Below are positions 5,562 through 50,572 of a stretch of 64,000 bases of DNA, in pieces. Source of the DNA: Pelodictyon luteolum DSM 273. Lineage in GTDB: Bacteria > Bacteroidota > Chlorobiia > Chlorobiales > Chlorobiaceae. The stretch's first letter is position 1; each line of letters begins with the position of its first letter. The notes beneath the pieces are model-generated. The model saw only the letters and a program-made list of their open reading frames with translations, did not search any database and was not told where the DNA came from. The position numbers and the translations under genes were made by a program. The stretch spans positions 1,427,001-1,491,000 of the forward strand of contig NC_007512.1 in the NCBI RefSeq assembly GCF_000012485.1, read 5' to 3'.

Positions 5562-7409
5562 TCAGGCGATGTATACGAGCACGTCACCGGTTGCCACCGT
5601 ATCGCCGACGGCGACATCAATGGAGACGACTTTTCCAGCCCTCGGCGACTTGACGGGAGACTCCATCTTCATGGCCTCGATGATGGCGATCTCATCACCC
5701 TCGGCAACCGTGTCACCGACTTCGACGGAGATGGCCATGACGGTTCCGGGAAGAGAGGTTTCAACAGGAACGCCCTCACCTGAAGAAGGAACGGCTGCAG
5801 GTGCTGCTTCTGCGACAGGTTTCACGGCGCCGGTTCCATCGGCGACCGAAACATTGAAGGACTTGCCGTCCACGGTAACGATATAGTTTGACATACAGGA
5901 TTTCTGGGGTTTGACGATGAGTTCATTAAGACGCTGATTCACATTCTTCGGTTCGGCCGTGCCATGCTTTTTTGCCACCTTTGCAGCCATTTCAGCCTCA
6001 ACATCAGCTTTGTAGCGGATGCCGAGCGGCTTGTCGCCCTGGAGGAACGAAATCCCTTTTGCGCCGCATGTTGCAGCGATGAAGATGTTCTCTTCCGTGA
6101 CGGGAACGCCTGCTTTCTCAAGCAGCGAACGGTTGTAGGCAATGCCGAGCTCGGGGTTGCGGTCATTGATGTCGTGCACATCCTCTTTCGTCGGCTGAAG
6201 TCCGAGCTGTTCGGATGCAAGCCGCACCACTTCCGGATCAGGCTCTGCAGGGGTGTTGCCGAAATAGCCGAGCACCATCTTGCCGTAGCTGTCGGTGATC
6301 TTCGTCCAGGGGCCCTGCACGGTGTTTGCGAAAGCCTGCTGGAAATAGAACTGGGAAACCGGGGTGACGGACGAGCCGAACCCGCCCTTGGCGACCACTT
6401 CACGCATGTTGCGGATGACCTCCGGGAACAGGTGCAGGGTGTTGTTGTCGCGCATCATCTGGGTGTTGGCCGTAAGCGCGCCGCCGGGCATCGGCGAGAA
6501 CGGGATGACGGGGTTGACCTCTTTGGCTTCCGGCGGCATGTAGTACTTCTCCATCCGTTCAGCAAAGAGCGCCTCGACCTCGATGTACTTCTCGGGATCG
6601 ATGTCAAGCGTATAGTCGGTGCCGCGCAGGCGGTGCCACATGGTGAGGATGTCGACCTCGGCCGTGCCTCCGCTGACGGGAGCCATGGCAAGATCGATGA
6701 TGTCCGCTCCGCCTTCAATTGCGGCGAAGTTGCAGGCCACGCCCATACCGGCGGTGTCATGGGTGTGGAACTCGATGATGGTACCCTCTGGGAGCATCGC
6801 ACGTGCGCCCTTGATTGATTCATAGACCACCGTCGGGGTCGTCACGCCGGAAGCGTCCTTGAAGGCAACGCTGTCGAACGGAATGCCGGCGTCAAGGATC
6901 TCACGAAGCTTGTCGAGGTAGAACTTCGGGGTGTGGCAGTAGCTCTCCTTCAGTCCCGGAGGAAGGCCCATGAGGGCAATGACGACCTGATGCTTGAGGC
7001 CCGCATTGTGGATGCACTGGCCGGAGTATGCGATATTGCGCACATCCATCAGGGCGTCGAAGTTGCGGATGGTGGTGATGCCGTGCTTCTTGAACATCCT
7101 TGCGTGCAGGTCGATGATGTCGCGCGACTGCGATACCAGACCGACGACGTTCGCACCCCTTGAAAGGGTCTGGAGGTTGATGTCGGGACCAACAACCCTG
7201 CGGGCGGCGTCCATCATCTCGAAGGCATCCTCCTGGCAGTAGAAGTACAGGCTCTGGAACCGGGCGCCTCCACCGATCTCGAAATTATCCGTCCCGGCTG
7301 CAACGGCAGCCTCGAGAGCGGGGATGAAATCCTCAGTCTTCACCCGTGCGCCGTAACAGGACTGGAACCCGTCACGGAATGATACATCCATAAACCGTAT
7401 TCTTTTCAT
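5562..7409 (-). CDS. oadA: Biotin-dependent decarboxylase alpha subunit / pyruvate carboxylase subunit B
   Basis: The 615-residue protein has an N-terminal HMGL-like carboxyltransferase barrel (opening MKRIRFMDVSFRDGFQS, with the metal-site motif EFHTHDTAGMG near residue 215). A PycB/OadA conserved region and a C-terminal biotinyl domain follow, with the modified lysine in EAMKMESPV about 40 residues from the end. An Ala/Pro-rich linker precedes the biotinyl domain, as in OadA. It transfers the carboxyl group of oxaloacetate (or a related 2-oxo acid) to biotin, or the reverse in pyruvate carboxylation. With the gamma and beta subunits on either side it should form a membrane Na+-pumping complex. 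No biotin carboxylase gene is adjacent, which favours a decarboxylase. Confidence 0.92.
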   Translation of the reverse strand: MKRIRFMDVSFRDGFQSCYGARVKTEDFIPALEAAVAAGTDNFEIGGGARFQSLYFYCQEDAFEMMDAARRVVGPDINLQTLSRGANVVGLVSQSRDIIDLHARMFKKHGITTIRNFDALMDVRNIAYSGQCIHNAGLKHQVVIALMGLPPGLKESYCHTPKFYLDKLREILDAGIPFDSVAFKDASGVTTPTVVYESIKGARAMLPEGTIIEFHTHDTAGMGVACNFAAIEGGADIIDLAMAPVSGGTAEVDILTMWHRLRGTDYTLDIDPEKYIEVEALFAERMEKYYMPPEAKEVNPVIPFSPMPGGALTANTQMMRDNNTLHLFPEVIRNMREVVAKGGFGSSVTPVSQFYFQQAFANTVQGPWTKITDSYGKMVLGYFGNTPAEPDPEVVRLASEQLGLQPTKEDVHDINDRNPELGIAYNRSLLEKAGVPVTEENIFIAATCGAKGISFLQGDKPLGIRYKADVEAEMAAKVAKKHGTAEPKNVNQRLNELIVKPQKSCMSNYIVTVDGKSFNVSVADGTGAVKPVAEAAPAAVPSSGEGVPVETSLPGTVMAISVEVGDTVAEGDEIAIIEAMKMESPVKSPRAGKVVSIDVAVGDTVATGDVLVYIA

Positions 7410-10155: not shown

Positions 10156-11706
10156 ATGAACCGTCTGCCGGAATCGCTTCTGGACCCCCAGGCATACCCG
10201 CACCCCACTGGTGAAATTGTATTGGTCGAGACCCATATTTCATGGGTATTTCTTGCGGGCGGCTATGCCTACAAGGTCAAAAAACCAGTTGATCTCGGGT
10301 TCCTCGACTTCTCAACCCTTGAAAAGCGCAGGCAATTCTGCCACGAGGAGCTGCGGCTGAACCGGAGGCTATGCCGGGGCATCTACCTTGATGTCGTACC
10401 GGTTGTCCAAAGAGACGGGCGGCTTCATATCGGGGGAGAGGGTGAGACGGCAGACTACGCCGTCAAAATGGTACGTTTCGACCGGACACAGGAGCTCGAC
10501 CGCCTGCTCCGGTCCGGCGGCCTGAAACAGGCACTGGTCGAGCAGCTTGCCTCAAAGATCGCAGCCTTTCACACATCCCTTGACCCGCTTCCCCCTTCGA
10601 CCCCGTACGGCACAGCCGATACGCTCATCAAGCCCATGCTCGAGAACTTCGGCCATCTGGAGCCGGCTGCAACCGATGCAGGCGAGGGCGCCCTCGTCGA
10701 GCGGCTGAGGAAGTGGACACTCGAACGCCACAACGAGCTCATGAGGGTATTCGCCGGGAGAAAAGCCGCAGGATGCATACGCAGGTGCCACGGCGACCTG
10801 CATTCGGGCAATATGGTGCTGGTGAACGAGGAGGTGGAGGTGTTCGACTGCATCGAGTTCAGCAATAGGCTCAGCTGCATCGACGTCGCCAGCGATGCCG
10901 GATTTCTTTTCATGGATCTCCTGCATGCAGAAAGGAGGGATCTGGCCTGGTGCTTCCTGAACCGGTGGATGATGGAAACCGGCGACTACGGCGCGATGCG
11001 GGTAGTACGTTTCTACACCATCTACAGGGCGCTGGTGCGGGCAAAGGTGACGGCGATACGCTACAGCCAGGAAACAGGCGAAGCGCGAAAGCTTGCCCTG
11101 CAGGAGCACCGTTCCTATATCGGCTTTGCCGGCCGGTGCATAGAGGAGAAACGCCCATACCTGCTCATCACAACGGGACTCTCCGGCAGCGGCAAAACGA
11201 CCCATGCCGCCGCACTCGCCACGACACTTGGCGCAGTGCATGTCCGGTCCGACATTGAGCGCAAGCGCCTTCGGGGCCTGAAACCGCTTGAGAGCAGCCG
11301 GGAGCTTTCGGAGTCCATCTACACCACACAAATGAGCCGGGCGACCTACAACCAGCTGCTAGAGGCGGCGGATGCTGCACTTTGCGGTGGCTACCCGGTC
11401 ATTGCCGATGCCGCGTTCCTCAGGAAGAGCGAGAGAAAAGAGTTCATTGATCTGGCCGGTTCACTCGGATGCCCCTGCAGGATCCTGGCGTATGAAGCCC
11501 CTGATGAGGTGCTCATGCAACGGGTGCGACTGCGGAGTGAACGGCACAGCGATGCCTCCGAAGCAGACGAAGCGGTCCTTCTGGAACAATATGCCAGACG
11601 TGAGGGGTTCAGCGGCAAAGAGGAGCCGCTGGTGCTGAGGATAGCAACAGCGGGAAAGGTGGACCCGGAGGCTGAAGGGAGGCGGGTTACGGCCTCCCTC
11701 CACTGA
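10156..11706 (+). CDS. Fused aminoglycoside-phosphotransferase-like and P-loop kinase protein
   Basis: Two kinase-like halves in 516 residues. The first, residues 1-330, has the APH/choline-kinase fold: GGYAYKVKKP for the nucleotide-binding lysine, CHGDLHSGN for the catalytic loop, and FDCIEFSNRL before the metal-binding Asp in IDVASDAG. The second, from about residue 340, is an AAA-type P-loop kinase with GLSGSGKTTHAAALA and downstream Arg-rich lid residues. Start 10156 has GGGGAG six bases upstream and lies after the promoter. The substrate is unknown and the resistance-enzyme name should not be taken as drug resistance. The stop is four bases from the stop of the convergent iron gene. Confidence 0.82.
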   Translation: MNRLPESLLDPQAYPHPTGEIVLVETHISWVFLAGGYAYKVKKPVDLGFLDFSTLEKRRQFCHEELRLNRRLCRGIYLDVVPVVQRDGRLHIGGEGETADYAVKMVRFDRTQELDRLLRSGGLKQALVEQLASKIAAFHTSLDPLPPSTPYGTADTLIKPMLENFGHLEPAATDAGEGALVERLRKWTLERHNELMRVFAGRKAAGCIRRCHGDLHSGNMVLVNEEVEVFDCIEFSNRLSCIDVASDAGFLFMDLLHAERRDLAWCFLNRWMMETGDYGAMRVVRFYTIYRALVRAKVTAIRYSQETGEARKLALQEHRSYIGFAGRCIEEKRPYLLITTGLSGSGKTTHAAALATTLGAVHVRSDIERKRLRGLKPLESSRELSESIYTTQMSRATYNQLLEAADAALCGGYPVIADAAFLRKSERKEFIDLAGSLGCPCRILAYEAPDEVLMQRVRLRSERHSDASEADEAVLLEQYARREGFSGKEEPLVLRIATAGKVDPEAEGRRVTASLH

Positions 11707-11710
11707 CCGG

Positions 11711-12586
11711 TCATACCTCTATGCCGAAAGCATAGCGGATGACATAGCCGGCAAGGAAACTCAAGGCGGCAACCGAGAAGCTCAGCCCGACCATTTCAAG
11801 GAACCGGGTCCTGAAGGGCACGTCGCGGGCAACGGAAATGTAGTAGTTGAAGAATCCGATGATGCAGACCGCTCCGAAAAACGACAGGCCGAGCGACACA
11901 TAGAGGTCGGCGATCAGGATGAAGGGCGCAACCAGCACGATGACGGTCAGAATATAGGCGATGCCGGTATAGATGGCTGCACGGAAAGGGTTGTTTCCGT
12001 TCGGTTCAGACTTGGTCGACAGATACTCCGAAGCCGCCATCGATAGCGCTGCGGCAAATCCCGTGATGGAGGCGGTAAGAGCCACAAGTCTTGTATCCTG
12101 CAGGGCAAGAGTCAGACCGGCAAGCACACCCATCAGTTCGACAAGCGCATCGTTCAGGCCGAGTACGATCGAGCCGGTGTACTGCAGGCGTTCCTCGTCA
12201 AGCAGCTTGAGCAGGGCCTCCTCATGCTCCTCTTCGTCGCGGAGAATGCCGTTGACTTCATGCAGCGAGGGCGGCAGGGCTCCGTAGGCATCGAGTGCGC
12301 CTTTTTCCCCCTTCTCCATCAGCCTGATGCCGAAGGTGAATCCGAAGAGCATGCTGACCAGTGAGTAGAACCAGATCCTGAAACGGCTGGGAGCCACGTC
12401 CCTGCGGCTATGGTTCTTCCAGATATTGTAGTGCCGCATCTCGTCATCGGCGATCTGGGCCAGCACCCGGCGGTTCTTCACCCCGCGGACCCTGGTGGCC
12501 AGATTGCGGTAGATATGGTACTCGGTGATCTCGTTCTTCTGGAATGCCTCGATCTCCCTTGTGTTCAGTTCCCTGTTGCGTTTCAC
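11711..12586 (-). CDS. Ferritin-like / VIT1 fusion membrane protein (iron transport or storage)
   Basis: Residues 1-130 form a rubrerythrin-like four-helix domain with iron-ligand Glu and His patterns ([29 protein letters not shown]). Residues 140-291 are a VIT1/CCC1-type membrane domain with about five helices and the conserved [16 protein letters not shown] and [13 protein letters not shown] motifs. This is the domain order of Er-VIT1 or membrane-bound ferritin A proteins, which export or handle Fe2+/Mn2+ and protect against peroxide and iron stress. It is a single gene, convergent with the kinase fusion and downstream of htpG on the same strand. Confidence 0.87.
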
Positions 12587-12619
12587 AGTCCTGGTGTTTG
12601 TTATTGTTGGGGTATGCCG

Positions 12620-14497
12620 TTACCGCGAAAGCGTCGCTGCCTCGATCAACTCATTCATCCGCGAGACAAAGCCCGTGGTGGAATCCAGTCCGCCCTCAAG
12701 AAGCAGTGCCCCTTCGTACAGCTGGTGGATTGCGGTACGGATGAGGGGGTTATTGTCGTTGGCCATCATCATGCCCGACAGGTTCCTGATGATGGGATGC
12801 GAAGGGTTCACCTCGAGGATCTTCCTGCCGGCCGGCATCTCCTGCTGCATCATTTTCATCATCCGCTCCATCTGGCTGTCCATGGCGTCCTTGCCGCTGA
12901 CAAGCGTCACGGGAGAGCTGACGAGGCGGTGTGACTCGACAACGTCCTCGATGCCCTCGCCAAGGGTTTCCCGGAAGATCTTCAGCAGCGGAACAAGCAG
13001 ATTTTCAGCGATCGGCTCCGTCTTGTCCTTCGTTGCTTTGGAGAAGTCAATGTCCGCCTTTTCGATGGACTTGAGCTGTTTTTTGTCGTACTCGTGGATG
13101 GAGGGAATCACGAACACATCAACCGGATCACTGAGCAGCAGCACTTCGATCCCCTTGTCCTGGAAATACTCAAGGTTCGGGTTGGCAAGGAGCTGGGCCC
13201 TGCCTGCACCGGAATGGTAGTAGATCTCTTTCTGGTCCGGAGCCATGCGGGCGGCGTACTCTTTCAGGGTGACGTACTCCCCCTCCCCGGTCTTGGTGCT
13301 CTCGAAGCGCAGCAGCTCGATGAGTTTGTCGCGGTTGGTGAAATCAGTGTTCAGTCCGATTTTGACAATGGGGCCAAAAGCCTTGTAGAAGGTCCTGAAC
13401 TTCTCCGGCTGAGCGGTAGCGAGCTCCTCGAACCAGCCAAGGATCTTCCCGGTCAGGATCTGCCGGATTTTCGACATTACGGGGCTCGACTGCACGATTT
13501 CACGAGACACGTTCAGCGACAGGTCCTCGGTGTCGACCACGCCCGCGATGAAGCGGAGATACTCGGGAAGCAGATCACGGCACTCGTGCTGGATCATCAC
13601 CTTTTTCACATAGAGCTGCGGACCTTTGTTCTCGAGTTCGCCCTGGCGATAGAGCAGCTCCATCGGAGCCTCTTTCGGAAGAAACAGGATTGCCTTGAAG
13701 CTGACGGCCCCTTCCACCGACACGTGGAGGTAGTCGAGGGGTTCGTTGAAATCGTTGCTGATGAACTTGTAGAATTCGTTGACCTCCTCCTGCTTCAGCT
13801 CGCTCTTCGGACGCTGCCAGAGGGCGGTGATGCTGTTGAGCTGCTTCGTTTCGAGATAGATCGGGAAATCGACGAAGTTGGAGTACTTCTTGATGATGTG
13901 CTCGACCCGGTACTCTTCGGCAAACTCCTTGTGCTCGTCCTTGAGGGTGAAGGAGATCCGGGTGCCGGGCTCTTTTTTGTCGATCTTTTCGATGGTGTAG
14001 GTCCCCTGGCCTGACGAGCGCCACCGGAGGCCTTCAGACCCGGCCCGTGCGCTGCGGGTCTCGACCGTGACGTCGTCGGTCACCATGAACACCGAGTAGA
14101 ACCCGACGCCGAACTGGCCGATGAGGTTGCCGTCGAGCTCCTTTTTCTCCTGGCGGAGCGCCTGCATGAAGCCGAGGGTGCCGGACCTGGCCACGGTGCC
14201 GAGGTTGGCGATCAGTTCCTCCTCGGTCATGCCGATGCCGGTGTCTTCAATGGCGAACGCTGCCGTCTTGGCGTCAAGGGAGATCCTGATGGCCGCCTCT
14301 CCGGAGACTTTGGCCATGGTGTCGTCGGTAAGGGCGCTGAAGCGCGCCTTGCTGAGGGCATCGGAAGCATTGGAGACAAGCTCGCGGAGAAAGATTTCGG
14401 GATGGGTGTAGAGGGAATGGACGATGAGGTCGAGCAGCTGTTTCATTTCTGCCTTGTACTCGAACTCCTGCACTGCTGTATTCTGCTTGTTGCTCAT
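12620..14497 (-). CDS. htpG: Chaperone HtpG (Hsp90 family)
   Basis: 625 residues, normal length for bacterial Hsp90. The N-terminal GHKL ATPase has [32 protein letters not shown] and the lid motif [11 protein letters not shown]. The middle domain and the C-terminal dimerisation domain follow intact. I start it at MSNKQNTAV (14497) because the upstream in-frame Met at 14554 falls inside a good promoter and its extra 19 residues are not family-like. HtpG is an ATP-driven cytosolic chaperone. Confidence 0.95.
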
Positions 14498-36595: not shown

Positions 36596-37605
36596 GCAGG
36601 CAGGGGTCAGCGGGAACCGGAGGACCGCTTGATGCGGAAAGCATTGCCCGGGGCGTGATTGGCGGCAACCGCCAGATGCTTGCCAGAGCCATCACGCTCG
36701 TGGAATCCGAAAACCCGGTGCACGCCGAATCGGCACGCCGCATCCTTGAGCAATGCATCACTGAAGGTCGGCATGCGATGCGCATTGCCGTCACCGGCTC
36801 GCCGGGAGCCGGCAAAAGCACCTTCATCGAATCACTTGGCGAAGAGATCATCAGCAACGGTCATAGCCTTGCGGTCCTTGCCGTCGACCCGAGCAGCCTG
36901 CGTTCGAGAGGAAGCATTCTCGGCGACAAGGCCCGCATGGAAAAGCTGACCGCACGAAAAGAGGCCTTCATACGCCCTACCGCGTCCTCAGGCCACCTCG
37001 GAGGCGGAGCGCCAAAAACCCATGAAACCATGCTGCTGCTGGAAGCGGCGGGTTATGAAGTCATCATACTGGAAACAGTCGGGGTGGGCCAGTCGGAAGT
37101 ACATGCCGATGCCATGACGGACTTCGTCCTTCTCCTCATGCTGCCGGGATCGGGTGACGAGCTGCAGGGGATAAAACGCGGGATCATGGAAATTGCGGAC
37201 GCAGTCGGCGTCACCAAGGCGGACGGAGAGCGGGTGGAGTTGGCCAAAGCAACAGCATCCGACTTTACGGCAGCCCTCGGCATGCTGCCCGAGAAACACC
37301 CCGGACACCGGCGGAAGGTGCTCCTCACCTCGGCACGCAGCGGAGCAGGCATCAAGGAAACCTGGGGGGAGATTACCGGCTTCTTCGATCTTCTCCAAAA
37401 GAGCGGGGAGCTTGAGCTGCGTCAGCTGCAGCAACGCTCAAGCCTGCTCCGGGACCTCGTCGAATGGGGACTCAGGAAAGCGTACCGGAGCGACCCTGCC
37501 ATACAACAGCGGAAGGCGGAGATAGAGGCCGAGGTTGCTGCCGGCCGGCTGAGCCCGTTCGAGGGCGCCGATCTGCTCGTCGAAGCCTTTAGGCTTCGCC
37601 GATAA
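36592..37605 (+). CDS. meaB: Methylmalonyl-CoA mutase-associated GTPase MeaB/ArgK
   Basis: 337 residues. P-loop [17 protein letters not shown], switch motifs [12 protein letters not shown] and the base-recognition NKxD position read as VTKADGE, with the C-terminal dimerisation arm. MeaB protects the cobalamin mutase from inactivation and gates cofactor loading. It overlaps mutB by four bases (ATGA) and ends 17 bases inside the convergent stress protein gene. Confidence 0.94.
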
Positions 37606-38047
37606 ACTCCTTCTCATCATCCTTGACGATCAGCACCGGGCAGCCAGCCCTGCGCACGATTGTTTCGGCAACGCTTCCCATCAGGAGGCGGCTGAGCCCT
37701 TTCTTGCCGTGGGAACCCATGATGATGAGGTTGACATCGAGTTCGTTCAACCGCTCCAGGATGATGTCGGCAGGATTGCCGATGCGTACAAGCCCATCGG
37801 CCTTGATGCCGGCAGCACGAAGCTCACCGAGCAGGAGCTCGAGATCCTCTGTGGCAGCCTTCTCGAGGTCCTCTTCAAGCGGCACATAGTTGAGCGAGAT
37901 GTCAACAGCCATCGGACGGGGCTCGACTACGTTGAGCAGCATGAGTGACGCACCCATGCCCAAGGCAAATTCCTGGGCGTAACGCACCGCCTTTTTCGAT
38001 ACATCGGAAAAATCAACCGGACAGAGGATGGTCTTGATCTTGAACAT
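37589..38047 (-). CDS. Universal stress protein, UspA family
   Basis: 152 residues, one Usp domain. The ATP-binding signature is MGSHGKKGLSRLLMGSVAET, and ILCPVDFSDVSKKAV carries the strand-1 Asp. A paralogue of the gene at 9403, it overlaps the end of meaB by 17 bases and ends the metabolic block before the CRISPR locus. Role unknown beyond stress or energy sensing. Confidence 0.88.
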   Translation of the reverse strand: MFKIKTILCPVDFSDVSKKAVRYAQEFALGMGASLMLLNVVEPRPMAVDISLNYVPLEEDLEKAATEDLELLLGELRAAGIKADGLVRIGNPADIILERLNELDVNLIIMGSHGKKGLSRLLMGSVAETIVRRAGCPVLIVKDDEKEFIGEA

Positions 38048-38423
38048 GGCTGTATGTTTATGTTGTCTGTTTGCAGACCTTCACTGCAGGATTTCTTTCA
38101 AATATATAACAAAAATAAGCTCGCAGACTACCCAATACCCACCGTCTCAATGTAATTGCTATAGGAAAATAACGCTCTACGCACATAAATTTTACACCTA
38201 GGACACCCTTTGTCCCATAGCCCATAGTAGATTGCTTTTGAATCGCCGGCTTAACACATAGTGATTTATTGAAATCAATGCATAAATTACACCAATAGGA
38301 CTTCACGGTAAGGCGGCATAGAATCAAATCAACCCTTCCTTCCCAACCAGAGAACGTTCTGCAATTTATGCAGTCGATTTGCGCGATTCTTGTCAATGTA
38401 GAAAACTCAGCCCAGTTCCCCCG
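38048..38423. promoter_or_regulatory. AT-rich region upstream of the cas operon with imperfect direct repeats
   Basis: About 375 bases without a good gene. Two related 21-base stretches at 38184-38204 and 38281-38301 both start CATAAATT and end in AGGAC, and AATTTATGC at 38363-38371 is their inverted core. The palindrome ATTGA-AA-TCAAT lies just before the second copy. These may be binding sites controlling cas expression. I cannot place a confident -35/-10 pair. Confidence 0.4.
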
Positions 38424-40653
38424 ATGAAACCCGTTGCACATCTCCGTCAATTAGAGGATTCCGTTTGGGAAGAACATTCCCTTCATGACCACCTCATGCA
38501 TGTTGCAGAACTTGCCGGCAGATTTGCAAAAGAGTTCGGCAATGCCGACTGGCTGCAAGCTGCGGGATTATTGCATGATCTTGGCAAATTCAACCCGACC
38601 TGGCAGGAATATATCCGCAGGAACAATGGGGATTATTCCGAGGAGGATGATGGGCAAGATTGACCATTCCGCTGCTGGAGCCATACATGCCGTGCAGAAA
38701 CACGCCCTGATCGGAAAAGCTCTGGCCTATCTCATTGCCGGCCATCACACGGGGTTGCCGGACTGGTATCGTGAACCCGGTACTGGCGGCCAAACATTGC
38801 CCGAACGGATAGAGAACAAGGATCATCATCATCTTCAACATGCATTACAGGGTAAGCCTCCGGCTGACATTCTTGAGGTTTCCTTACCGACGACGCACCC
38901 CTGTGGAAGCCCGACTCCAGCTCCCGAATTGATGCACCTGTGGATTCGCATGCTTTATTCCTGTCTTGTCGATGCGGACTTTCTCGATACAGAAGCATTC
39001 ATGAATCCGGATAAGGCTCAAGCGAGGTTACATGCATACAATCTTTCCGAACTGAAAGATACGTTTAATCATTTCATGGCCCGGAAACAGGCTGGAGCTA
39101 AAGATTCACCAGTAAACCGGGCAAGAAACTTGATTCTAGAAGAATGCCGTACGAATGCCGCTCTGGAGCCGGGACTTTTTTCCCTGACGGTACCAACAGG
39201 TGGCGGAAAAACACTGTGCTCCATGGCATTTGCCCTTGAGCATGCAATCCGGTTCCAAAAAAAACGAATCATTGTTGCCATACCCTATACCAGTATCATC
39301 GAACAGACTGCCGATCAGTACCGACAGATATTTGGCAATGATGCGGTGCTTGAACATCACAGCAACCTCGATCCTGAAAAAGGAAGCGGGAAGTATAGGC
39401 TTGCCTCAGAGAACTGGGATGCACCAATTATCGTGACCACGAACGTGCAGTTGTTCGAATCTTTATTTGCCGCCAAAAGCTCAGCATGCCGGAAGCTCCA
39501 CAACATCGTCAATTCAGTTATTGTGCTTGATGAAGCGCAGATGCTGCCCACCGGGTATCTGCAACCGGTTGTTTCCGTTCTGGAATTGCTTGCGGAGCAT
39601 TTCAGAACCTCAATTGTCCTGTGCACAGCTACACAGCCAGTCTTGTCCGGCAGAGTCGGAACCGGACAGAATGTGCTGAAAGGTTTCAAGAATGACGGTG
39701 TCAGGGAACTGATGTCTGATCCCGACAACTTGTTCAAGGTATTTCAGCGAGTAACGGTAAACATGCTTGGCGATGCCGATGAGAGGCATGAATGGGACAA
39801 AATAGCTGAAGCCATTACGACCCAACGACAGGCGCTATGCATCGTCAATACCCGAAAAGATTGCCGTGAGCTACATGGGCTGATGCCGGAAGACACCATT
39901 CATCTTTCTGCACTCATGTGCCCTGAACACAGAAGCCAGGTTATCGCCGATATCAAGTCAAAGCTGATTGATGGAGAATCTGTTCGTGTCGTCAGTACAC
40001 AACTGCTCGAAGCTGGTGTAGATATAGACTTCCCTAGGGTTTATCGAGCATTCAGCGGTCTTGACAGCATCGCACAAGCTGCTGGCAGATGCAACCGGGA
40101 AGGAAAACATGAAAGAGGGGATGTCCTCGTATTCAACCCACCGAAACCACCGCCTCCCGGCATCATGCTGAAGGCTGAACAAGCCGGGAAGGAGATGTTC
40201 CGAGCATTTCCAGAACTGGCAACGACCCTCATGCCGAGAGCCTTCAGACAGTACTTCAGCCTGTATTACGGACGCTTGAACAGTTTCGATGTACAGAAAA
40301 TAATGGAACTGCTTGTTGCAGATGCCCCTCAGCTCAATATCCAGTTCCGTACGGCGGCCATGCGGTTCAAGCTGATCGATGACAAGAGCCAGCATGGTGT
40401 TATCGTGCGATACCGATCCGAAAGAATCGATAGCAACCCGCTGATCGACCAATTGCGTTATGGCGGCCCGAATCGCAAGTTGATGAGACAGTTGCAACGT
40501 TTTTCGGTCAACGTGTATGACAAAGATTTGATGCAACTCAGAAATAACGGGCTGATAGAAAACATCAACGGTGTATGGGTGCAGCTGTCGGAAAGTGCAT
40601 ACCATCCGGTTTTCGGATTGAACGTCGATGCAACACTGGACTATTACTGGTAA
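38424..40653 (+). pseudogene. cas3: CRISPR-associated helicase-nuclease Cas3 (type I), frameshifted in the HD domain
   Basis: The first frame starts at ATG 38424 and encodes the HD start (EEHSLHDHLMHVAELAG, LLHDLGKFNPTW) but stops at 38663. The rest is in the next frame and runs to 40653: DHSAAGAIHA and LIAGHHTGLP complete the HD domain, then the helicase has VPTGGGKTLCSMA, VLDEAQMLP, STQLLEAGVDIDF and AAGRCNREG. Removing one G from GGG at 38652-38654 would fuse them as EEDDGKIDHSAAG, about 743 residues. An AGGAGG sits just before ATG codons at 38647 and 38650 in the second frame, so separate translation of the helicase part is possible. Cas3 cuts and unwinds Cascade-marked DNA. Confidence 0.9.
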
Positions 40654-40676
40654 ATCAATCACGGGGATGATACGCT

Positions 40677-41390
40677 ATGGAACATTTCAACAAAACGTTC
40701 TGCCTTGAAGTGAAAGGGGATTACGCCTGTTTCACAAGGCCGGAGATGAAGGTGGAGCGCGTCAGTTACGACGTCATCACTCCTTCATCGGCGAGGGGGA
40801 TTTTCGAAGCGATATTCTGGAAACCAGCCATTCGCTGGCGAATTCGAAAGATCGAAATATTGAATCCGATCAAATGGATTTCGGTGAGGCGCAATGAAGT
40901 CGGTCAAACCGCAAGCGACCGAAGTGAGGGGATTTTCATCGAAACAGCGCGACAGCAACGAGCAGGCTTGTTTCTACGGGATGTGGCCTACCGGCTTTAC
41001 GCTGAACTTGAGTTCATCCCGCATCCCAACAGAACTGAAACAAAACGTTCTGTTCCAGAACCACTCCTTGACACATGGGAAAAAGAAGAGTTCAGAAAAG
41101 ACGAAAACCCTGGCAAATACTATGGCATCTTCGAGCGTCGAGCTCGAAAAGGTCAGTGTTTCAACCAGCCATATCTCGGTTGCCGCGAGTTCAGTTGCGA
41201 ATTCAGGTTGATTGATGGCCACACAACGGAAACAGTGCCAATCAGTGAAACGCGCGATCTTGGATTCATGCTCTACGATCTTGACTTTGAAAAGAACGTC
41301 AAAGAATCCTCACCAGCGTTTTTCAGGTGCTGTATGGAACAAGGAGTGATCAACGTCCCGGCTTGGGATAGCGAGGAGGTGAGAAAATGA
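40677..41390 (+). CDS. cas5: Cas5c (Cas5d), type I-C crRNA-processing subunit
   Basis: 237 residues. The N-terminal RAMP ferredoxin fold begins FCLEVKGDYACFTRPEMKVERVSYDVITPSSARGI, typical of Cas5 of subtype I-C, which replaces Cas6 as the pre-crRNA endonuclease and stays on the crRNA 5' handle. It lies 23 bases after cas3 and overlaps cas8c by four bases. Confidence 0.94.
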   Translation: MEHFNKTFCLEVKGDYACFTRPEMKVERVSYDVITPSSARGIFEAIFWKPAIRWRIRKIEILNPIKWISVRRNEVGQTASDRSEGIFIETARQQRAGLFLRDVAYRLYAELEFIPHPNRTETKRSVPEPLLDTWEKEEFRKDENPGKYYGIFERRARKGQCFNQPYLGCREFSCEFRLIDGHTTETVPISETRDLGFMLYDLDFEKNVKESSPAFFRCCMEQGVINVPAWDSEEVRK

Positions 41391-43132
41391 TTTTACAGGC
41401 TCTCTATGACTACTACCAGCGCAAAGCTGTCGATCCGGATAGCGGTATTGCGCCAGAAGGTTTCGTATGGAAAGAAATTCCTTTTGTTATAGTGATTAAT
41501 CACGAGGGTGATTTCATCTCACTTGAAGATACCCGAGAAGGAGATGGCAAAAAGAAACGGGCGAAAAAATATTTGTTACCGAAATCAGTCGGACGTTCAG
41601 GATCCAATGGATGGATGACAAGCTTTCTTCTATGGGATCATTACGGCTATGTGTTGGGTCATGCAAGAAGTGAAGGTGAAAAAGATCAGGTGATGGCTCA
41701 AAAACAGATGCTAAGCTTTATTAAAAAGATTCAAGATTTGCCTCAGGAGATTAAAGAAGACAACGGTGTCTTGGCTGTCATTCGTTTTTATGATCAACGC
41801 TCATATGAAAAAGTAAAAGATTCAGATAAGTGGGAAGAGTGCTCTAAAATCATCGGGTGCAATATGAGTTTTAGGCTGGATGGCGATAGCAGTCTTATAC
41901 CATGCAATACTAGCGTTCAGAAATATATTGCGGATCAATGTGACGAAAACGCTGATGGTGTTACCGGCTTATGTCTTATCACAGGGAAAAGAGGAGAAAT
42001 AGCCAGAATTCACAGTGATACACCGATAAATAAAGACTCAAAAAAATTTGTGTCCTTTCAGAGGAGCTCAGGATATGACTCTTATGGAAAGGAACAGGCA
42101 TTTAATGCCCCAATCAGTAAATCAGCTGAGTTCGCTTATACCACTGCCATGAATATGCTCTTAGGAAAGGACTCAATAAATAAAGTGCAGGTAGGTAATA
42201 CGACAAGTATTTTCTGGTCACAAAAAGAAGATGTCTTTGAGGCGATTTTTCCATCATTCTTTGGGTACAATAAAGACAATCCTGATGCTGATGTCAAAGC
42301 TGTAAAAACTCTTTTTGAAAGTGCCTGGACGGGATACGTAAATACCAACTCAAACACACGGTTCTATATACTGGGGCTTTCGCCGAATTCAGCTCGCATT
42401 GCTGTCCGATTTTGGCATACCGGAAGTATCGGGAAATGTTCCGGAAATATCAAACAGCATTTCGATGATCTTGAAATCATCAGACCTTCACATGATAGAG
42501 GACATTATTCCTTGTTCTGGCTTCTTTCCGCAATAGCACACGAGAAAAAGGTTGACAATATTCCGCCAAATCTCTCAGGACAAATTTTTGAAGCCGTTAT
42601 AACGGGAGGGACTTACCCGGCAACCATGCTTCAGCAGACCATAAGGCGCATTCGTGCAACTCAGGACGTCACAAGGGTTCAGGCAGGAATTTTAAAAGCC
42701 TATCTCAATAGATTTCACAGAATTTACTCAACCAAAGAAAAGGAGACAATCACCGTGGCTCTTGATTCTAATAATATCAATCCGGGATATCGGCTTGGGC
42801 GGCTTTTTGCCGTACTTGAAAAAATTCAGGAGGAAGCAAACCCCGGAATAAACGCAACGATACGTGACCGGTTTTATGGCGCGGCTTCATCCACACCGGT
42901 TACGGTATTTTCGCAATTACTTAAACTGAAAAACCATCATCTTGCAAAACTCGACAATGAAGGCCGAAAGGTCAATTTCGAGAGGATGCTTTCTGACATA
43001 TTTGCCGGGATCGATGCAAGTATGCCAGCACATCTTGCCATGGAGGATCAGGCCCGTTTTGCTATCGGCTACTATCACCAACGACAAGCATTGTTTACAA
43101 AGTCATCTTCAAACAACGAATCCAAAAATTAG
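41387..43132 (+). CDS. cas8c: Cas8c (Csd1), type I-C large subunit
   Basis: 581 residues, usual for Csd1. Starts [20 protein letters not shown] and includes [27 protein letters not shown] and [18 protein letters not shown]. It is the large subunit of type I-C Cascade, recognising the PAM and starting DNA opening. The first two-thirds of the gene are clearly AT-richer than the neighbouring genes, which suggests replacement by transfer. The last 125 codons can also be read separately as Cas11c. Confidence 0.95.
42755..43132 (+). CDS. cas11c: Cas11c, small subunit translated from inside cas8c
   Basis: A GTG at 42755, in frame with cas8c, has AAAAGGAG at 42738-42745, nine bases upstream. It would give 125 residues beginning (M)[24 protein letters not shown]. 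Type I-C systems are known to make Cas11c from an internal start of cas8c at this position, with this length, and the small subunit is needed to build Cascade. Seen: codon, ribosome site and length. Inferred: use in this organism. Confidence 0.7.
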
Positions 43133-43143
43133 GGAGAACAATC

Positions 43144-44043
43144 ATGAGCGATCTTACAAAGAGGTACGATTTTGCATTACTGTTTGATGTACAGGACGGC
43201 AATCCAAACGGTGATCCTGATGCAGGAAATCTGCCCAGAATAGATGCAGAAACCGGCATGGGTCTGGTAACCGATGTTTGCCTAAAACGCAAGGTTAGAA
43301 ACTATGTGCAGCTTTCAGGTAAGGATATTTTTATCAAGGAAAAAGCTGTTTTGAATACCCTAATCAGCAATGCATATGAAGAGCAGAAAATAGACCTTAC
43401 AAAAGATCCTGTCGATTTGAAAGATGGCAAGAAACGCAACAAAGACGGCACTGCGCAAGGTGGTGAGGTCGAGAAAGGCCGTTCCTATATGTGTTCAAGA
43501 TACTACGACATCCGCACATTTGGAGCGGTGATGTCTACAGGAGCTAACGCTGGTCAGGTGCGTGGACCCATTCAGATTACTTTTGCCCGGTCGGTTGAGC
43601 CGGTCGTTGCATTGGAGCACAGCATTACCCGTATGGCTGTCACAACTGAAGCGGATGCGGAAAAACAAAGCGGCGATAACCGGACGATGGGCAGAAAGTA
43701 CACTGTACCCTACGGGCTGTATTGTTCACATGGTTTCGTTTCGGCTCACCTCGCAAATCAAACCGGCTTCTCAGCAGAAGATCTCAAACTGTTCTGGGAA
43801 GCCTTACAGAATATGTTCGAACATGACCGCTCTGCAGCCCGAGGTATGATGTCTACTCGAGGACTCTATGTTTTCGAACACAGCACAGCTTTGGGTAACG
43901 CTCCGGCCCACAAGTTGTTTGAACGGATTAAAGTGGAACGGAAGCCGGAATCAGAAGGTCCGGCTCGTTCATTTGAAGACTATACCGTTACGATAGATGA
44001 AAGCGGACTTGACGGCGTGACTTTGCATAAAATGCTGTGCTGA
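43144..44043 (+). CDS. cas7: Cas7c (Csd2), type I-C backbone subunit
   Basis: 299 residues. The signature [21 protein letters not shown] opens the protein, as in Csd2; [18 protein letters not shown] follows. Several copies coat the crRNA spacer in Cascade. GGGAG precedes the ATG, and the next gene (cas4) overlaps its end by seven bases. Confidence 0.96.
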
Positions 44044-44693
44044 AAAGCATGTACGCTGCATCCGATTTCATAGCGCTCTCGGCATTGCAACACTTCGTTT
44101 ATTGCCCCCGACAGTGTGCATTGATCCATATCGAACAGGTATGGGCTGAAAACAGCTTCACTGCTGAGGGTAGGGTAATGCATGAACGTGTTGACGACGG
44201 AGAAACATCGTACCGTTCGGGGGTTCGAACTACAAGGAGCGTCTTGCTACGAAGTTCTATGCTGGGTGCTTCGGGTATAGCTGACGTTGTCGAGTGGCAT
44301 AAGAGCAATAGCCTTGAGGAACCGTTCCCGATAGAGTACAAGCGAGGAAGGCAGAAAAAGCATGATGCCGACAAGGTTCAACTCTGTGCCCAAGCCATCT
44401 GTCTTGAGGAGATGCTTAACCTGACAATACCTGCCGGAGCATTGTTCTATGGACAGACAAAACGGCGGTTCGATGTGACTTTCGATTCAACACTTCGAGC
44501 AAAAACCGTTTCTACTGCAGAATGCGTTCATGAACTGTTCAGGAATGGCGTCACTCCCCTGCCGGAACCCGGCCCGAAATGTACACAGTGCTCATTACAG
44601 GAGCTCTGTCTTCCTAAGGTCGTTGCACATAATCGGTCGGCTAAAGAGTATGTGCACAAACTGCTTCATGAACTGTCGGAGGGTGAAATTTGA
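44037..44693 (+). CDS. cas4: Cas4 iron-sulfur nuclease for spacer acquisition
   Basis: 218 residues from GTG 44037 (ATG at 44049 is the alternative). The first cluster cysteines are in YCPRQCALI and the last three in [10 protein letters not shown]. The RecB-like nuclease core appears as [19 protein letters not shown] and [12 protein letters not shown]. Cas4 trims prespacers and fixes PAM choice with Cas1-Cas2. Its stop overlaps the TTG start of cas1. Confidence 0.94.
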
Positions 44694-45721
44694 AAAAGCT
44701 GCTCAACACGCTGTTCGTAACTACGCAAGGAGCATATCTGTCGAAAGAAGGAGAGTGTGCGGTAATAAAAATCGATAAGGTTGAAAAGGTACGGCTGCCC
44801 CTTCATATGCTTGACGGAATTATCTGCTTCGGGCAGATAACCTGCAGCCCATTTCTCATGGGTCACTGCGCAGCCAATGGCGTAACCGTAACGTTCCTTA
44901 CCGAATACGGCAAGTTCCTCTGTCAGGTACAGGGGCCAACAAAAGGCAACATTCTGCTCAGGCGTGCACAGTACAGGCAAGCTGATAACTATCTGCAGTC
45001 GGCCATGCTTGCCCGATCGTTCGTCATCGGGAAAATCGGTAATAGTAGAGTTACGCTAGCAAGAGCCCTGCGGGACCACCCCGATAAGATCGATTGCGAA
45101 AAGATGCATTATGCTCAGCAACTGCTGGCAGGCTGTATAAAAAAGCTTGGAAATGAAACCGATCAGGAGCGAATCAGAGGCATCGAGGGTGAAGCTGCAA
45201 GAATATATTTCGAGGTATTCGACCAGTGCATTACCTCTTCTGATCCGTTGTTCTGCTTCAATGGCCGGAACCGTCGGCCGCCGGTTGACCGGGTAAACTG
45301 CCTGCTGTCGTTTCTCTATACCCTTGTGACGCACGATATCCGATCTGCACTTGAGTCATGCGGGCTCGATCCTGCAGCGGGTTTTCTGCATAAAGACCGA
45401 CCCGGCCGCCCGAGCCTTGCGCTCGATATGCTGGAAGAGTTCCGTTCCTATATAGCCGACAGAATGGCATTGTCGCTGATTAACCGGGGACAGATTCATG
45501 CGAATGATTTCACAGTATCCGCAACTGGCGCTGTGCTGATGAAAGACGATGCAAGAAAAACATTACTAACGGCTTACCAAAAAAGAAAACAGGACGAAAT
45601 AGAGCATCCTTTTATAAGAGAGAAAATGGCTGTAGGACTGATTTGGCATATGCAGGCTATGTTGCTGGCCCGTTATATCCGAGGGGATATCGATATGTAC
45701 CCACCCTTTGTCTGGAGATGA
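44690..45721 (+). CDS. cas1: Cas1 integrase, subtype I-C
   Basis: 343 residues from TTG 44690, with GGAGGG six bases before it. The metal-binding residues are in GIEGEAARIYFEVF (Glu), THDIRSALESCGLDP (His) and HKDRPGRPSLALDMLEEFR (Asp). It inserts new spacers next to the leader together with Cas2. Translationally coupled to cas4. Confidence 0.96.
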   Translation: MKKLLNTLFVTTQGAYLSKEGECAVIKIDKVEKVRLPLHMLDGIICFGQITCSPFLMGHCAANGVTVTFLTEYGKFLCQVQGPTKGNILLRRAQYRQADNYLQSAMLARSFVIGKIGNSRVTLARALRDHPDKIDCEKMHYAQQLLAGCIKKLGNETDQERIRGIEGEAARIYFEVFDQCITSSDPLFCFNGRNRRPPVDRVNCLLSFLYTLVTHDIRSALESCGLDPAAGFLHKDRPGRPSLALDMLEEFRSYIADRMALSLINRGQIHANDFTVSATGAVLMKDDARKTLLTAYQKRKQDEIEHPFIREKMAVGLIWHMQAMLLARYIRGDIDMYPPFVWR

Positions 45722-45724
45722 CCG

Positions 45725-46015
45725 ATGCTGGTACTTGTAACCTATGACGTCAATACAGAAACGCCTGCCGGCAGGCGAAGGTTACGCAGGATTGCTAAAA
45801 CTTGCCAGAACTATGGGCAACGAGTTCAGTTTTCCGTTTTTGAATGCAATGTCGATCCGGCACAATGGGTAAAACTCCGTGCAAAGCTGATGCAGGAAAT
45901 GAATCCTGCCCATGACAGCCTGCGATTTTATTTTCTCGGTTCAAACTGGCAGAATCGTATTGAACACGAAGGAGCAAAAGAACCGCGCGACCTTGAAGGA
46001 CCGCTAATTTTATAA
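45725..46015 (+). CDS. cas2: Cas2, adaptation subunit
   Basis: 96 residues. Begins MLVLVTYDVNTETPAGRRRLRRIAK with the first-strand Asp; the ferredoxin-like core and the beta strand SLRFYFLG follow. Forms the bridge of the Cas1-Cas2 integrase. It starts three bases after cas1 and is the last gene before the array. Confidence 0.96.
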   Translation: MLVLVTYDVNTETPAGRRRLRRIAKTCQNYGQRVQFSVFECNVDPAQWVKLRAKLMQEMNPAHDSLRFYFLGSNWQNRIEHEGAKEPRDLEGPLIL

Positions 46016-46195: not shown

Positions 46196-48792
46196 GTCGC
46201 GCCCCACGCGGGCGCGTGGATTGAAACTTTGATGAATGGAACCTATCGGACGAGCGAGTAGTCGCGCCCCACGCGGGCGCGTGGATTGAAACAGCGTAGG
46301 GTATAGGTACGGTATCGATAGGGTAGTCGCGCCCCACGCGGGCGCGTGGATTGAAACTGATAGTGTGGTATGGCCAGCCATTATAGGCCGCGTCGCGCCC
46401 CACGCGGGCGCGTGGATTGAAACCGGACGGGGATCACATTATTGCCCGCCGTAACGAGGTCGCGCCCCACGCGGGCGCGTGGATTGAAACCTTGTGAAGA
46501 AAATGGCGCAATTAAAGGTGTTGGTCGCGCCCCACGCGGGCGCGTGGATTGAAACAATGATGGTGGTACGATTTACAACCTCGTTGTGGTCGCGCCCCAC
46601 GCGGGCGCGTGGATTGAAACAATCGGATTGCAGACCGTATCTATGAGATGCTTGAGTCGCGCCCCACGCGGGCGCGTGGATTGAAACTCATGCCCGCCGT
46701 TGAAGTTCAGCAAGGGATCGAGGTCGCGCCCCACGCGGGCGCGTGGATTGAAACACCAAAATCACAGTCGTTTTCGTAACCGCAACGGTCGCGCCCCACG
46801 CGGGCGCGTGGATTGAAACGGGTAGTTATGGCGGAGCATCTGGAGCGTGGGGTGTCGCGCCCCACGCGGGCGCGTGGATTGAAACGCCGAGCTGATGGTT
46901 GGCCTCTGGGGTGGCATCGTCGCGCCCCACGCGGGCGCGTGGATTGAAACAAAACTTGGTGCAACAAAAGTCACGCTGTCTGAGTCGCGCCCCACGCGGG
47001 CGCGTGGATTGAAACAAGTCCGCTCGGAGTATCGTGGACCTGGTCCCAGTCGCGCCCCACGCGGGCGCGTGGATTGAAACTTTGTATACATGGGGGCTTG
47101 CCTTTGGTGGGCCGGTCGCGCCCCACGCGGGCGCGTGGATTGAAACCTATAACCTCATTACATGGTTGGAGCACCGCTATGTCGCGCCCCACGCGGGCGC
47201 GTGGATTGAAACGAAGCGAATACGACAAATCATACTCTCCGCCGGGTCGCGCCCCACGCGGGCGCGTGGATTGAAACTTTTTCGAGGGTGCCGGGGACGG
47301 AAGGGGACTCGTCGCGCCCCACGCGGGCGCGTGGATTGAAACTACCCTGTGGTTGAGCTTGATGGCGCAGGCGCTGTCGCGCCCCACGCGGGCGCGTGGA
47401 TTGAAACTGAATATCCGGCGCCATCTTACGGAACGCATCGGTCGCGCCCCACGCGGGCGCGTGGATTGAAACTTGAACGCGTCGCTTTCGTCGGCGACAA
47501 TCATTGTCGCGCCCCACGCGGGCGCGTGGATTGAAACTCTTCCGGACCGAGCTCCTCGATGTATGGGTTCGGTCGCGCCCCACGCGGGCGCGTGGATTGA
47601 AACAGTTATCCTTTTGAGGTTAAAGTTCGTACGCGAGTGTCGCGCCCCACGCGGGCGCGTGGATTGAAACCGAGGCAAGTACGCAGGGTTCGTCAGGTTC
47701 AAGGTCGCGCCCCACGCGGGCGCGTGGATTGAAACAATATCGGCCTGCATATCCAACAGCGCGTTTATCGTCGCGCCCCACGCGGGCGCGTGGATTGAAA
47801 CTCGTCAAACGCTATCCTCATAAAAGGGCGTGATGTCGCGCCCCACGCGGGCGCGTGGATTGAAACATCCGGGAGGTGCAGGAGGCGACCGGCATCCCGG
47901 TCGCGCCCCACGCGGGCGCGTGGATTGAAACAGCGACGACATCAGCCGACAGATACGGCTCGATGGTCGCGCCCCACGCGGGCGCGTGGATTGAAACATG
48001 TACCGGACAGCCCGCAAAAATGCAATCTCCGTCGCGCCCCACGCGGGCGCGTGGATTGAAACTAAAAAACCTTGAGGAGGTAGGGTTATGAAAGTGGTCG
48101 CGCCCCACGCGGGCGCGTGGATTGAAACAACCAGGAGCGATGGCTCGATGATGTAGATGATGCAGTCGCGCCCCACGCGGGCGCGTGGATTGAAACAAAC
48201 TCATTTGTTGTTGTTTCCCGGTTCCGCTGGGTGTCGCGCCCCACGCGGGCGCGTGGATTGAAACCACTATAAAATCAGAAGAAAGAGAAGGCAAGGAAGG
48301 TCGCGCCCCACGCGGGCGCGTGGATTGAAACTATTCGACGATTATCACCATAATAAGATGAAGCAAGTCGCGCCCCACGCGGGCGCGTGGATTGAAACGC
48401 CTCAAGACGGGCAGCAGTGTTATCGAGAGCCCGGTCGCGCCCCACGCGGGCGCGTGGATTGAAACAGGTAAGTTCCTGCCGACCGAGGAGAAGATTGCTC
48501 GTCGCGCCCCACGCGGGCGCGTGGATTGAAACTACTTCGGCTCTCGCGGGCTTGAGAAGATTGGGCAGTCGCGCCCCACGCGGGCGCGTGGATTGAAACT
48601 TCGGGATACAGCGCGTCAACTGATACCCGTGCCCGTCGCGCCCCACGCAGGCGCGTGGATTGAAACATGAGTCTCCCTGCTACTCTTCGCAAGCGGTTCG
48701 AGTCGCGCCCCACGCGGGCGCGTGGATTGAAACGCCTATCTGGGACGACGGGTCCCAGCTTTTCGGGTCGCGCCCCACGCGGGCGCGTGGAT
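46196..48792 (+). CRISPR. Type I-C CRISPR array, 40 repeats and 39 spacers
   Basis: The 32-base repeat (first copy 46196-46227; starts GTCGCGCCCC, contains the stem GCGCCC/GGGCGC, ends ATTGAAAC) is of the I-C class and matches the adjacent cas genes. I count 40 starts from 46196 to 48767, with 39 spacers of 33-36 bases. Copies are identical except the 38th (48635), which has one G-to-A change, and the last (48767), which keeps only its first 26 bases. The leader with its promoter is at the cas2 side, so the degenerate copy marks the old end. No repeated spacer was noticed. Confidence 0.97.
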
Positions 48793-48827
48793 CTGGGAAC
48801 TTGAGGTACTGTTCGTTCGCGATGGCG

Positions 48828-48857
48828 GTCTTCTTCCCCACACGCGGGGGGGGGGTC
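48828..48857. repeat. Degenerate type I-E-like CRISPR repeat
   Basis: GTCTTCTTCCCCACACGCG followed by a run of ten G resembles the palindromic repeats of type I-E arrays (GTCTTCCCCAC...GTGGGG), with a two-base insertion and a decayed right arm. It begins 36 bases after the last recognisable I-C repeat and matches the better copy at 49449. It is unrelated to the I-C repeat. Confidence 0.5.
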
Positions 48858-48901
48858 CATCAGCAAGGGAATCAAACCGCGGAATTAACCAGGGATTATA
48901 G

Positions 48902-49092
48902 TACATCGTCATCGACATAGGGCCAGACGCCCCACTCGACAAAGTTACCGAAGGCATTAATCTGAGCTTTGAACGCTACAAGGCAATACAACGCATCATC
49001 ATCCTGATGGGCGACAAAGCCCCCGAGATCCAAAAAAAGCTGACTATGAGACGGGAAAGATGCTCGTAGAGCTGCAGAGAAGACTGAAATAA
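48902..49092 (+). pseudogene. Frameshifted gene fragment of unknown family
   Basis: From 48902 one frame reads YIVIDIGPDAPLDKVTEGIN, continues through a helical FERYKAIQRIIILMGDKAPE and reaches a run of seven A (49032-49038). After it, the next frame continues naturally as ADYETGKMLVELQRRLK and stops at 49092. One extra A would join them. The charge pattern and helices look like a real protein C-terminus, but a stop codon directly precedes 48902 and I recognise no family. It lies between the two I-E-like repeats and may be phage-derived. Confidence 0.45.
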
Positions 49093-49203
49093 AAAAAGCG
49101 ATATAAAGAAGACCGGAGCCTTTCTTCCCGGTGGGCCGGCATTACCCGCCCCCCCCTCATCGCACTACAAATATACGCACGAATCGCTAAAATATAACCC
49201 GCC

Positions 49204-49448
49204 ATGATCGAGCCAATTATCCACATCGAGGTCGCCGGGATCCAAGAACTCAAAAGCCTGCTCGCCCGCATAACCAGCCCTCGCACAGCAAGTAACCAAA
49301 GACAGCGACGCACTCCACGGCATCGGCACCATCCTCTACAAAAGCGCCATCACCACCATCAACCAAGGCGGCCGGCCACTCTACAAACCACTCGCCCAAA
49401 GCACCATCAACAAACGATGGGCCAAAGAGCAAACGCGCACCCCCGGCA
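49204..49448 (+). pseudogene. Remnant of a Mu-like phage virion morphogenesis (gpG-type) gene
   Basis: ATG 49204 begins MIEPIIHIEVAGIQELKSLLARITSP, then a frameshift near 49280, after which the next frame reads LAQQVTKDSDALHGIGTILY and then TINQGGRPLYKPLAQSTINKRWA. The layout (beta start, helix, then a G-G-x-P-x-(Y/W)-x-P-L-x-x-x-T motif) resembles phage tail-completion/virion-morphogenesis proteins. The reading runs straight into the I-E-like repeat at 49449, so the gene is cut and frameshifted. Family assignment is by pattern, not alignment. Confidence 0.5.
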
Positions 49449-49477
49449 GTCTTCCCCACAGGCGTGGGGGTGTTGTG
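49449..49477. repeat. Isolated type I-E-like CRISPR repeat
   Basis: A 29-base unit beginning GTCTTCCCCACAGGCGTGGG and ending in GGTGTTGTG has the intact CCCCAC/GTGGGG stem of I-E repeats. Only one copy is present; no second copy follows at spacer distance. With the decayed copy at 48828 it suggests the remains of another array. The 280 bases after it (to 49757) are AT-rich and hold no gene I recognise. Confidence 0.6.
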
Positions 49478-49757
49478 ATACCCTCAATCGCACAATATCT
49501 GGTAATATTATTCCAAAATAGAACGCACAATACATTCTATCAGCTCGCCGTGTTCAACAATGAGCTTCGGATGATTGATAACAGGCAAGATCTGGATTAT
49601 GAACAGTTTCGCGCTTTTCGCTTCGTTCAGCTATACCGATGTATGTTCCCCGTGCTCGTAAAAACTTGACAGGAAGACTGACTTCACAGATAAGAGTGTT
49701 TGCGCGATAGCAGAATCAGAAAAGCCGGGGGAAATCACTTATGGGGAAACTCACCCT

Positions 49758-49803
49758 GCCGGTTATGATTCCGTACCCTCTAGTGGACGGAATCATAACC
49801 GGC
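49758..49803 (-). terminator. Long inverted repeat downstream of slipin gene
   Basis: GCCGGTTATGATTCCG (49758-49773) and its exact complement CGGAATCATAACCGGC (49788-49803) enclose a 14-base loop, 13 bases after the stop of the minus-strand slipin gene. A 16-base-pair stem without a T run suggests a terminator or an mRNA-end barrier. Confidence 0.6.
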
Positions 49804-49816
49804 GGCCTCCGCTCCG

Positions 49817-50572
49817 TCAGGACTTGTTCAGGAAGACAGAGAAGAGATCGATCGGGATCGGGAAAACGGTCGTCGAGTTGTTCTCCTGGGCGATGTCCTT
49901 CAGGGTCTGCAGGTAGCGCAGCTGCAGGGCCGAAGGAGCAGAGGAGATGACCATGGCAGCGTCAGCCAGACGCTGGGCGGCCTGGAACTCACCCTCGGCG
50001 TTGATGATCTTCGAACGGCGCTCACGCTCCGCCTCGGCCTGCTTGGCCATGGCGCGACGCATCTCTTCGGGAAGGTCAATCTCCTTCACCTCCACCTTGC
50101 TCACCTTCACACCCCAGGGCTCGGTGTCCTTGTCGAGAATGGACTGGATCCGGGTATTGATTTCATCGCGCTCGGCCAGGAGATTATCAAGCTCTCCCTG
50201 TCCACAGACACTCCGGAGGGTGGTCTGGGCAAGCTGCGAGGTCGCGAAATGGAAATCCTCGACATCGATAATGGCCTTTACCGGGTCGAGCACCCTGAAG
50301 TAGACCACCGCACTTACCTTCACCGACACGTTGTCGCGGGTGATGATGTCCTGCGGGGGGACATCGAGTGTGACGGTGCGGAGGTCCACCCGCACCATCT
50401 TGTCGATGCCCGGGATGAGGATGATGAGCCCCGGACCTTTGGGACCGAGCAGCCTGCCGAGGCGGAACACGACGGCCCGTTCGTATTCGCGCATGATCTT
50501 GATCGAAGAGGCCAGAAAGGCCGCAACGAGGATCAGTATGGTGAGAAAATTGAAAGTAAGCATAGTGTGCAT
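49817..50572 (-). CDS. Slipin (SPFH/Band 7/stomatin family) membrane protein
   Basis: 251 residues. One N-terminal membrane helix ([19 protein letters not shown]), then the SPFH domain ([42 protein letters not shown]) and a coiled-coil Glu/Arg-rich segment ([14 protein letters not shown]) leading to [14 protein letters not shown]. Slipins oligomerise at the membrane and are usually encoded next to an NfeD protease, as here; NfeD cleaves their hydrophobic C-terminus ([14 protein letters not shown]). Confidence 0.93.

Follow-up and report, generated by a model that had tools for sequence, protein, structure and literature searches.

Two type I-E CRISPR repeats enclosing Mu-like phage DNA in Pelodictyon luteolum: a probable fossil of a lost array

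Why do two solitary repeats of one CRISPR type stand directly beside the array of another, with broken phage-like genes between them? The question is raised by a locus of Pelodictyon luteolum DSM 273 contained in a 64,000-nucleotide stretch of its genome (NC_007512.1, positions 1,427,001 to 1,491,000), referred to here as the window, whose coordinates are used throughout. A first-pass annotation, made from the letters of the window, had described the locus as the remains of a type I-E system next to a type I-C array, enclosing phage debris. The features on which the analysis draws are as follows.

37589–38047, minus strand: usp gene, left flank of the island (usp–SPFH adjacency in relatives)
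38485–46015, plus strand: type I-C cas operon with cas3, cas8c/Csd1, cas7, cas1 and cas2 (Pfam Cas3-like_C_2, Cas_Csd1, Cas_Cas7, Cas_Cas1; cas2 by position and length)
46196–48792, plus strand: type I-C array, 39 full repeats and a final repeat cut to 26 of 32 nt (48767–48792)
48793–48827, plus strand: orphan spacer-like stretch of 35 nt between the I-C array and the I-E relic (length, position)
48828–48856, plus strand: R1, decayed type I-E repeat, its 3' half replaced by poly-G (alignment)
48857–49448, plus strand: phage-derived giant spacer, 592 bp (collinear with L091 3352–3964 and the G010 prophage)
48857–49095, plus strand: frameshifted MuF-type phage head gene, 3' end only (PF04233, Phage_Mu_F, in intact homologues; alignment)
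49092–49176, plus strand: copy of a three-way-junction element (covariance model R1, E 3.9e-27; covariation)
49204–49448, plus strand: frameshifted 5' part of a Mu gpG gene (virion morphogenesis), truncated by R2 (intact homologue: PF05069, phrog_26)
49449–49474, plus strand: R2, good type I-E repeat (palindrome scan, identity to other arrays, alignment)
49817–50572, minus strand: SPFH/band-7 gene, right flank of the island (usp–SPFH adjacency in relatives)

Type I-E repeats at the end of a type I-C island

The repeats were compared with those of intact type I-E arrays. R2 (GTCTTCCCCACAGGCGTGGGGGTGTT) is identical at 26 of 26 nucleotides to the repeats of the intact arrays of two relatives (G029 and G059), and it is the sole copy of the CTTCCCCAC..GTGGGG palindrome in the 2,364,842-bp single-contig genome. 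R1 agrees with the TCTTCCCCACACGCG(T)GGGGG variant of the repeat at 20 of 21 positions before running into its poly-G tract; with R2 set aside, it was the top match in the 64-kb window (alignment score 34, next 27). The second P. luteolum genome, CIII (G025), has one extra G in R1. Arrays of intact relatives are built from a 28-nt GTCTTCCCCAC..GTGGGGGTGTTTC repeat of the same type as the window repeats, and their terminal repeat is degenerate at its 3' end, as at the relic. Allowing up to two mismatches, the repeat GTCTTCCCCACNNNCGTGGGGGTGTT was found in 24 of 86 Chlorobiaceae genomes, mostly in regularly spaced arrays, and Cas7e in 19 of the 86; I-E repeats and cas genes thus occur in about a quarter of the family. 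Profile searches of the DSM 273 genome detected neither Cas7e (PF09344) nor Cse1 (PF09481), and beyond R2 the genome holds no other good I-E repeat. Since the repeat type is common to I-E arrays while Cas7e and Cse1 are missing here, the locus is best described as a real but orphaned I-E relic. The earlier description of two isolated I-E-type repeats, left by a second CRISPR type beside the I-C array, is borne out by these comparisons, including the search for a cas set and a matching repeat that it had proposed.

The I-C system and the relic appear to have a common insertion history. In four relatives (G022, G028, G029 and G038) usp and SPFH are adjacent, separated by 39–48 bp, and the junction is empty; the I-C system and the I-E relic are therefore taken to form one inserted island of approximately 11.8 kb, with the relic at one end. 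Replacement of a resident I-E locus at the same site was considered and rejected: in the relatives compared, SPFH and the I-E array are on different contigs or at least about 100 kb apart, and the usp–SPFH junction is empty in the four relatives. Leader-distal I-C spacers (46196–48792, compared with L032 1–820) differ between DSM 273 and CIII, indicating turnover even at the old end of that array. Because these spacers differ while the relic is 99% identical, the relic has outlasted I-C spacer turnover and is fixed in both P. luteolum genomes. Among the fetched loci, the 35-nt stretch that joins array and relic has a homologue in CIII only. In DSM 273 the HD region of the I-C cas3 gene contains a frameshift (38379–38760), so that impairment of the I-C system is possible too. 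Comparison of the I-C spacers with the fetched phages gave only matches of 13–17 nt, none of them convincing. A near-perfect 22-bp inverted repeat with a 2-nt gap, possibly a terminator, lies beside SPFH at the right end of the island (49758–49803).

Phage DNA and a structured element between the repeats

The segment between R1 and R2 was aligned with Mu-like phages of Chlorobiaceae. It is collinear, at 69% identity and with few indels, with the viral contig L091; homology starts at 48857, directly after the poly-G tract of R1, and reaches the first base of R2, so that the segment abuts R2 within about one base. It begins with the 3' end of the MuF-type gene, continues through a structured intergenic element and ends within gpG, of which it holds the first half. 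L091 and the G010 prophage have the order terminase, portal, MuF-type head gene (with an extra C-terminal domain), structured element and gpG. Mu-like phages of the family (IMGVR_UViG_3300029286_003654 and the G010 prophage) carry MuF gene, element and gpG in the order and orientation of the window but have no CRISPR repeats there, whereas the window has only this internal 0.6-kb piece. Domains were assigned from the intact homologues, since no Pfam family scored above cut-off with the broken fragments themselves; a DNA-level search of a phage collection yielded only chance matches of 32–38 bp. The whole segment is 99% conserved in CIII. The two frameshifted gene fragments of the first-pass annotation are thus real, although they are parts of one collinear phage stretch and not independent genes; gpG, whose 5' part is present, is a virion-morphogenesis gene of Mu. 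Instead of the ends and core genes of a Mu-like prophage, the repeats enclose the end of MuF and the start of gpG. What lies between them is phage DNA flush with both, with no sign of a whole phage having interrupted an array.

The element between the two genes is a conserved three-way junction of approximately 66 nt (annotated over 85 nt in the window) with compensatory changes (8 of the 19 pairs in the model are changed on both sides), and its occurrences were confined to the genomes of Chlorobiaceae and to their Mu-like phages. A covariance search returned 21 copies in 17 of the 86 Chlorobiaceae genomes, and a pattern scan of 84,980 species, with one genome for each, gave Chlorobiaceae matches only. 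Further copies lie at L034 9783–9868, at L041 6449–6534 and around L091 3612. Rfam searches gave no matching family, neither for the window at gathering level nor for related loci at E 0.1. Two roles for the element were considered. A minus-strand small-RNA gene, suggested by a poly-U end and a TACAAT-like box, found no support in promoter and terminator scans, which were empty in L034 and L091 and gave only chance-level stems in the window. An anti-CRISPR mimic of the repeat was discarded, as only about 9–11 nt resemble the I-E repeat.

A second giant spacer and the ends of both

A parallel case was found in G063, a metagenome assembly of an uncultured member of the Chlorobiaceae (CAIPKT010000114.1) that has a complete I-E cas operon and an array of 15 repeats. 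The last, leader-distal interval of this array is 387 nt of phage DNA, both ends of which are flush between intact I-E repeats. Like the window segment, it holds the end of a MuF gene and the element, but it continues into the start of a gene unlike the window's and belongs to another Mu-like phage lineage, so that the same gene junction is covered in different phages. The rest of the G063 system is intact, whereas for the relic the I-E cas genes are missing, two repeats are left and the interval is 592 nt. In a tree of the shared region, the G063 piece forms one group with the phages of G051 and G072 (support 100), from which the window piece stands apart. This placement in separate lineages provides good support for two independent captures from two phage lineages. 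Of the 33 positions of one ordinary G063 spacer, 30 match the Mu-like phage of G051, and the G063 system therefore does target this phage family. No other giant I-E interval was seen in arrays parsed fully or partly (312 ordinary spacers, including those of G063) or in others inspected by position; the giant I-E spacers seen number two, one in the window and one in G063. The open-access literature yielded no report of such spacers.

By analogy with G063, R2 probably closed the old array as its last repeat, at the leader-distal end. R1 and R2 flank the DNA of an invader, as repeats of an I-E array do, but 592 nt is far from the 32–36 nt of the 312 spacers of relatives, and the I-E cas genes are missing from the genome. 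We read the locus as the fossil of a lost type I-E array, consisting of two repeats, probably from its leader-distal end, with a 592-bp segment of a Mu-like phage between them.

To place the ends of the giant spacers, the protospacer-adjacent motif of the I-E systems was derived from relatives. Intact arrays have 33-nt spacers starting with a PAM-derived Y: 303 of 312 spacers begin with C or T. Protospacer matches of at least 26 of 33 positions were found at four sites, deriving from three spacers, one of which occurs in two genomes, and all four sites have AA just upstream. Together, the first base and the upstream AA give AAY as the PAM, a well-supported assignment resting on three spacers. 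It agrees with the AAY-N32 rule published for type I-E in another species (PMC7677007).

Judged from phage relatives, each giant spacer begins at an AAY site. The first base is T in G063, where the G051 phage reads AAAAC, and C in the window, where the G010 prophage (L033) and L091 read AAC; the G072 phage has bases other than AAY at the equivalent position. At the other end, the terminal 33 nt of the insert in G063 and the terminal 34 nt of that in the window each begin with C and follow AA. The local AAY frequency is 0.034–0.037 (0.034 for G063), rising to 0.075 for the window when two lengths are allowed, and the joint chance that both 3' ends fit is approximately 0.003, for a test conceived after the sequences had been viewed. 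All four ends are consistent with AAY, with the reservations that the starts are judged via phage relatives, that the window 3' end needs 34 nt and that the rule comes from three spacers.

Possible origins of the giant spacers

The explanation that we favour, with moderate confidence (a probability of roughly 0.6 for the whole account), is that two ordinary spacers from the same phage were fused when the array recombined with phage DNA. An I-E array would have held two spacers, about 33 and 34 nt long, derived from one phage strand. Through these short identities it would then have recombined with phage DNA, exchanging the middle repeat for the phage sequence that lies between the two sites. 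Later losses would have removed the remainder of the array together with the I-E cas genes, and the remnant would have stayed beside the I-C array in one inserted island, where it would now be decaying and inactive. Neither a recombination intermediate nor a sister strain with the two spacers still separate was found. The main rival is that Cas1–Cas2 took up an abnormally long phage fragment in a single step, with the repeat duplicated as usual, the PAM end correct and the other end arbitrary. Such a capture accounts for the flush boundaries and AAY starts of both cases, but it is silent on the 3' ends, which in both nevertheless fit AAY at 33–34 nt, and lengths of 387 and 592 nt are far outside the range of the other I-E spacers. 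Fusion is preferred because it predicts PAM-proper 3' ends and over-long capture does not; we consider the latter unlikely, at perhaps one chance in four. The insertion and deletion offered by the first-pass annotation, here taken as a Mu-like phage that transposed into the array and was then deleted save for one piece, draws on the expectation that phages of this family transpose and on transposase-like genes in L033 and L091. Insertion and deletion could have disrupted an array, but the phage ends are missing, and random deletion would not be expected to leave an internal piece flush with the repeats, with PAM-defined ends, in two independent lineages. This course of events is accordingly improbable.

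It is less probable still, to the point of being very doubtful, that the repeats arrived with the phage DNA, in a phage-borne mini-array or as a solitary repeat. It has been proposed that phages carry solitary repeat units and that these recombine with host arrays (PMC8616872); such units, like the relic, place phage DNA beside isolated repeats. The window repeats, however, are chromosomal and the related phages are without them: the I-E repeat is absent from the G010 (L033) and G072 (L038) loci and from the surroundings of the region in L091, and the G051 phage aligns straight through it without a repeat. The repeat of R2 is, moreover, that of chromosomal arrays with cas genes, and the mini-array that the first-pass annotation had offered as a second possibility is not supported. 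Least credible of all is that the repeats resemble type I-E by chance. The degraded state of R1 would allow it, but R2, identical to real arrays throughout and unique in the genome, already refutes it for that repeat, and R1 and R2 sit at both edges of the phage homology. As Chlorobiaceae arrays use the repeat of R2 and homologues of the enclosed fragments exist, the circumstances in which the first-pass annotation would have accepted a chance resemblance do not apply.

Spacer fusion suggests a broader proposal, which we put forward tentatively and hold to be somewhat less than an even bet. CRISPR arrays may occasionally be rewritten by recombination with a target phage, so that two spacers from the same phage are joined into a PAM-bounded giant spacer and a repeat is removed; in green sulfur bacteria this would have happened at least twice at one Mu-like gene junction, possibly helped by the structured element. 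If so, arrays would be written by Cas1–Cas2 but also edited by phage DNA, and such editing would destroy immune memory and could serve as counter-defence. In G063 an intact, testable example is available, and sequence databases allow the predicted end rule to be checked. A puzzling stretch of the P. luteolum genome would be explained as the fossil of a lost immune system.

Some further loci carry stray I-E repeats or CRISPR-linked copies of the element. G084:C2 (L144) and G085:C1 (L145) each have one isolated I-E repeat with similar flanks near toxin–antitoxin-like genes, and no phage DNA is linked to either. Several related loci, including the copies in G083 and G012, were found with the phage sequence as query, and for this reason they do not prove the phage region to be a hotspot. 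In G083 (L041, G083:C55), over-long intervals occur in an array of another CRISPR type, at 5870–6412 (543 nt, with short gene-like frames) and at 6450–6542 (93 nt, corresponding to the element). In G012 (L040 around 10381–13190; G012:C16:135380–138190), a copy split by an IS21-like insertion lies close to where an I-E array ends. The copy follows, at a distance of about 36 nt, a 14-nt match to the end of a type I-C repeat, which makes this another mixed I-E/I-C junction with phage DNA.
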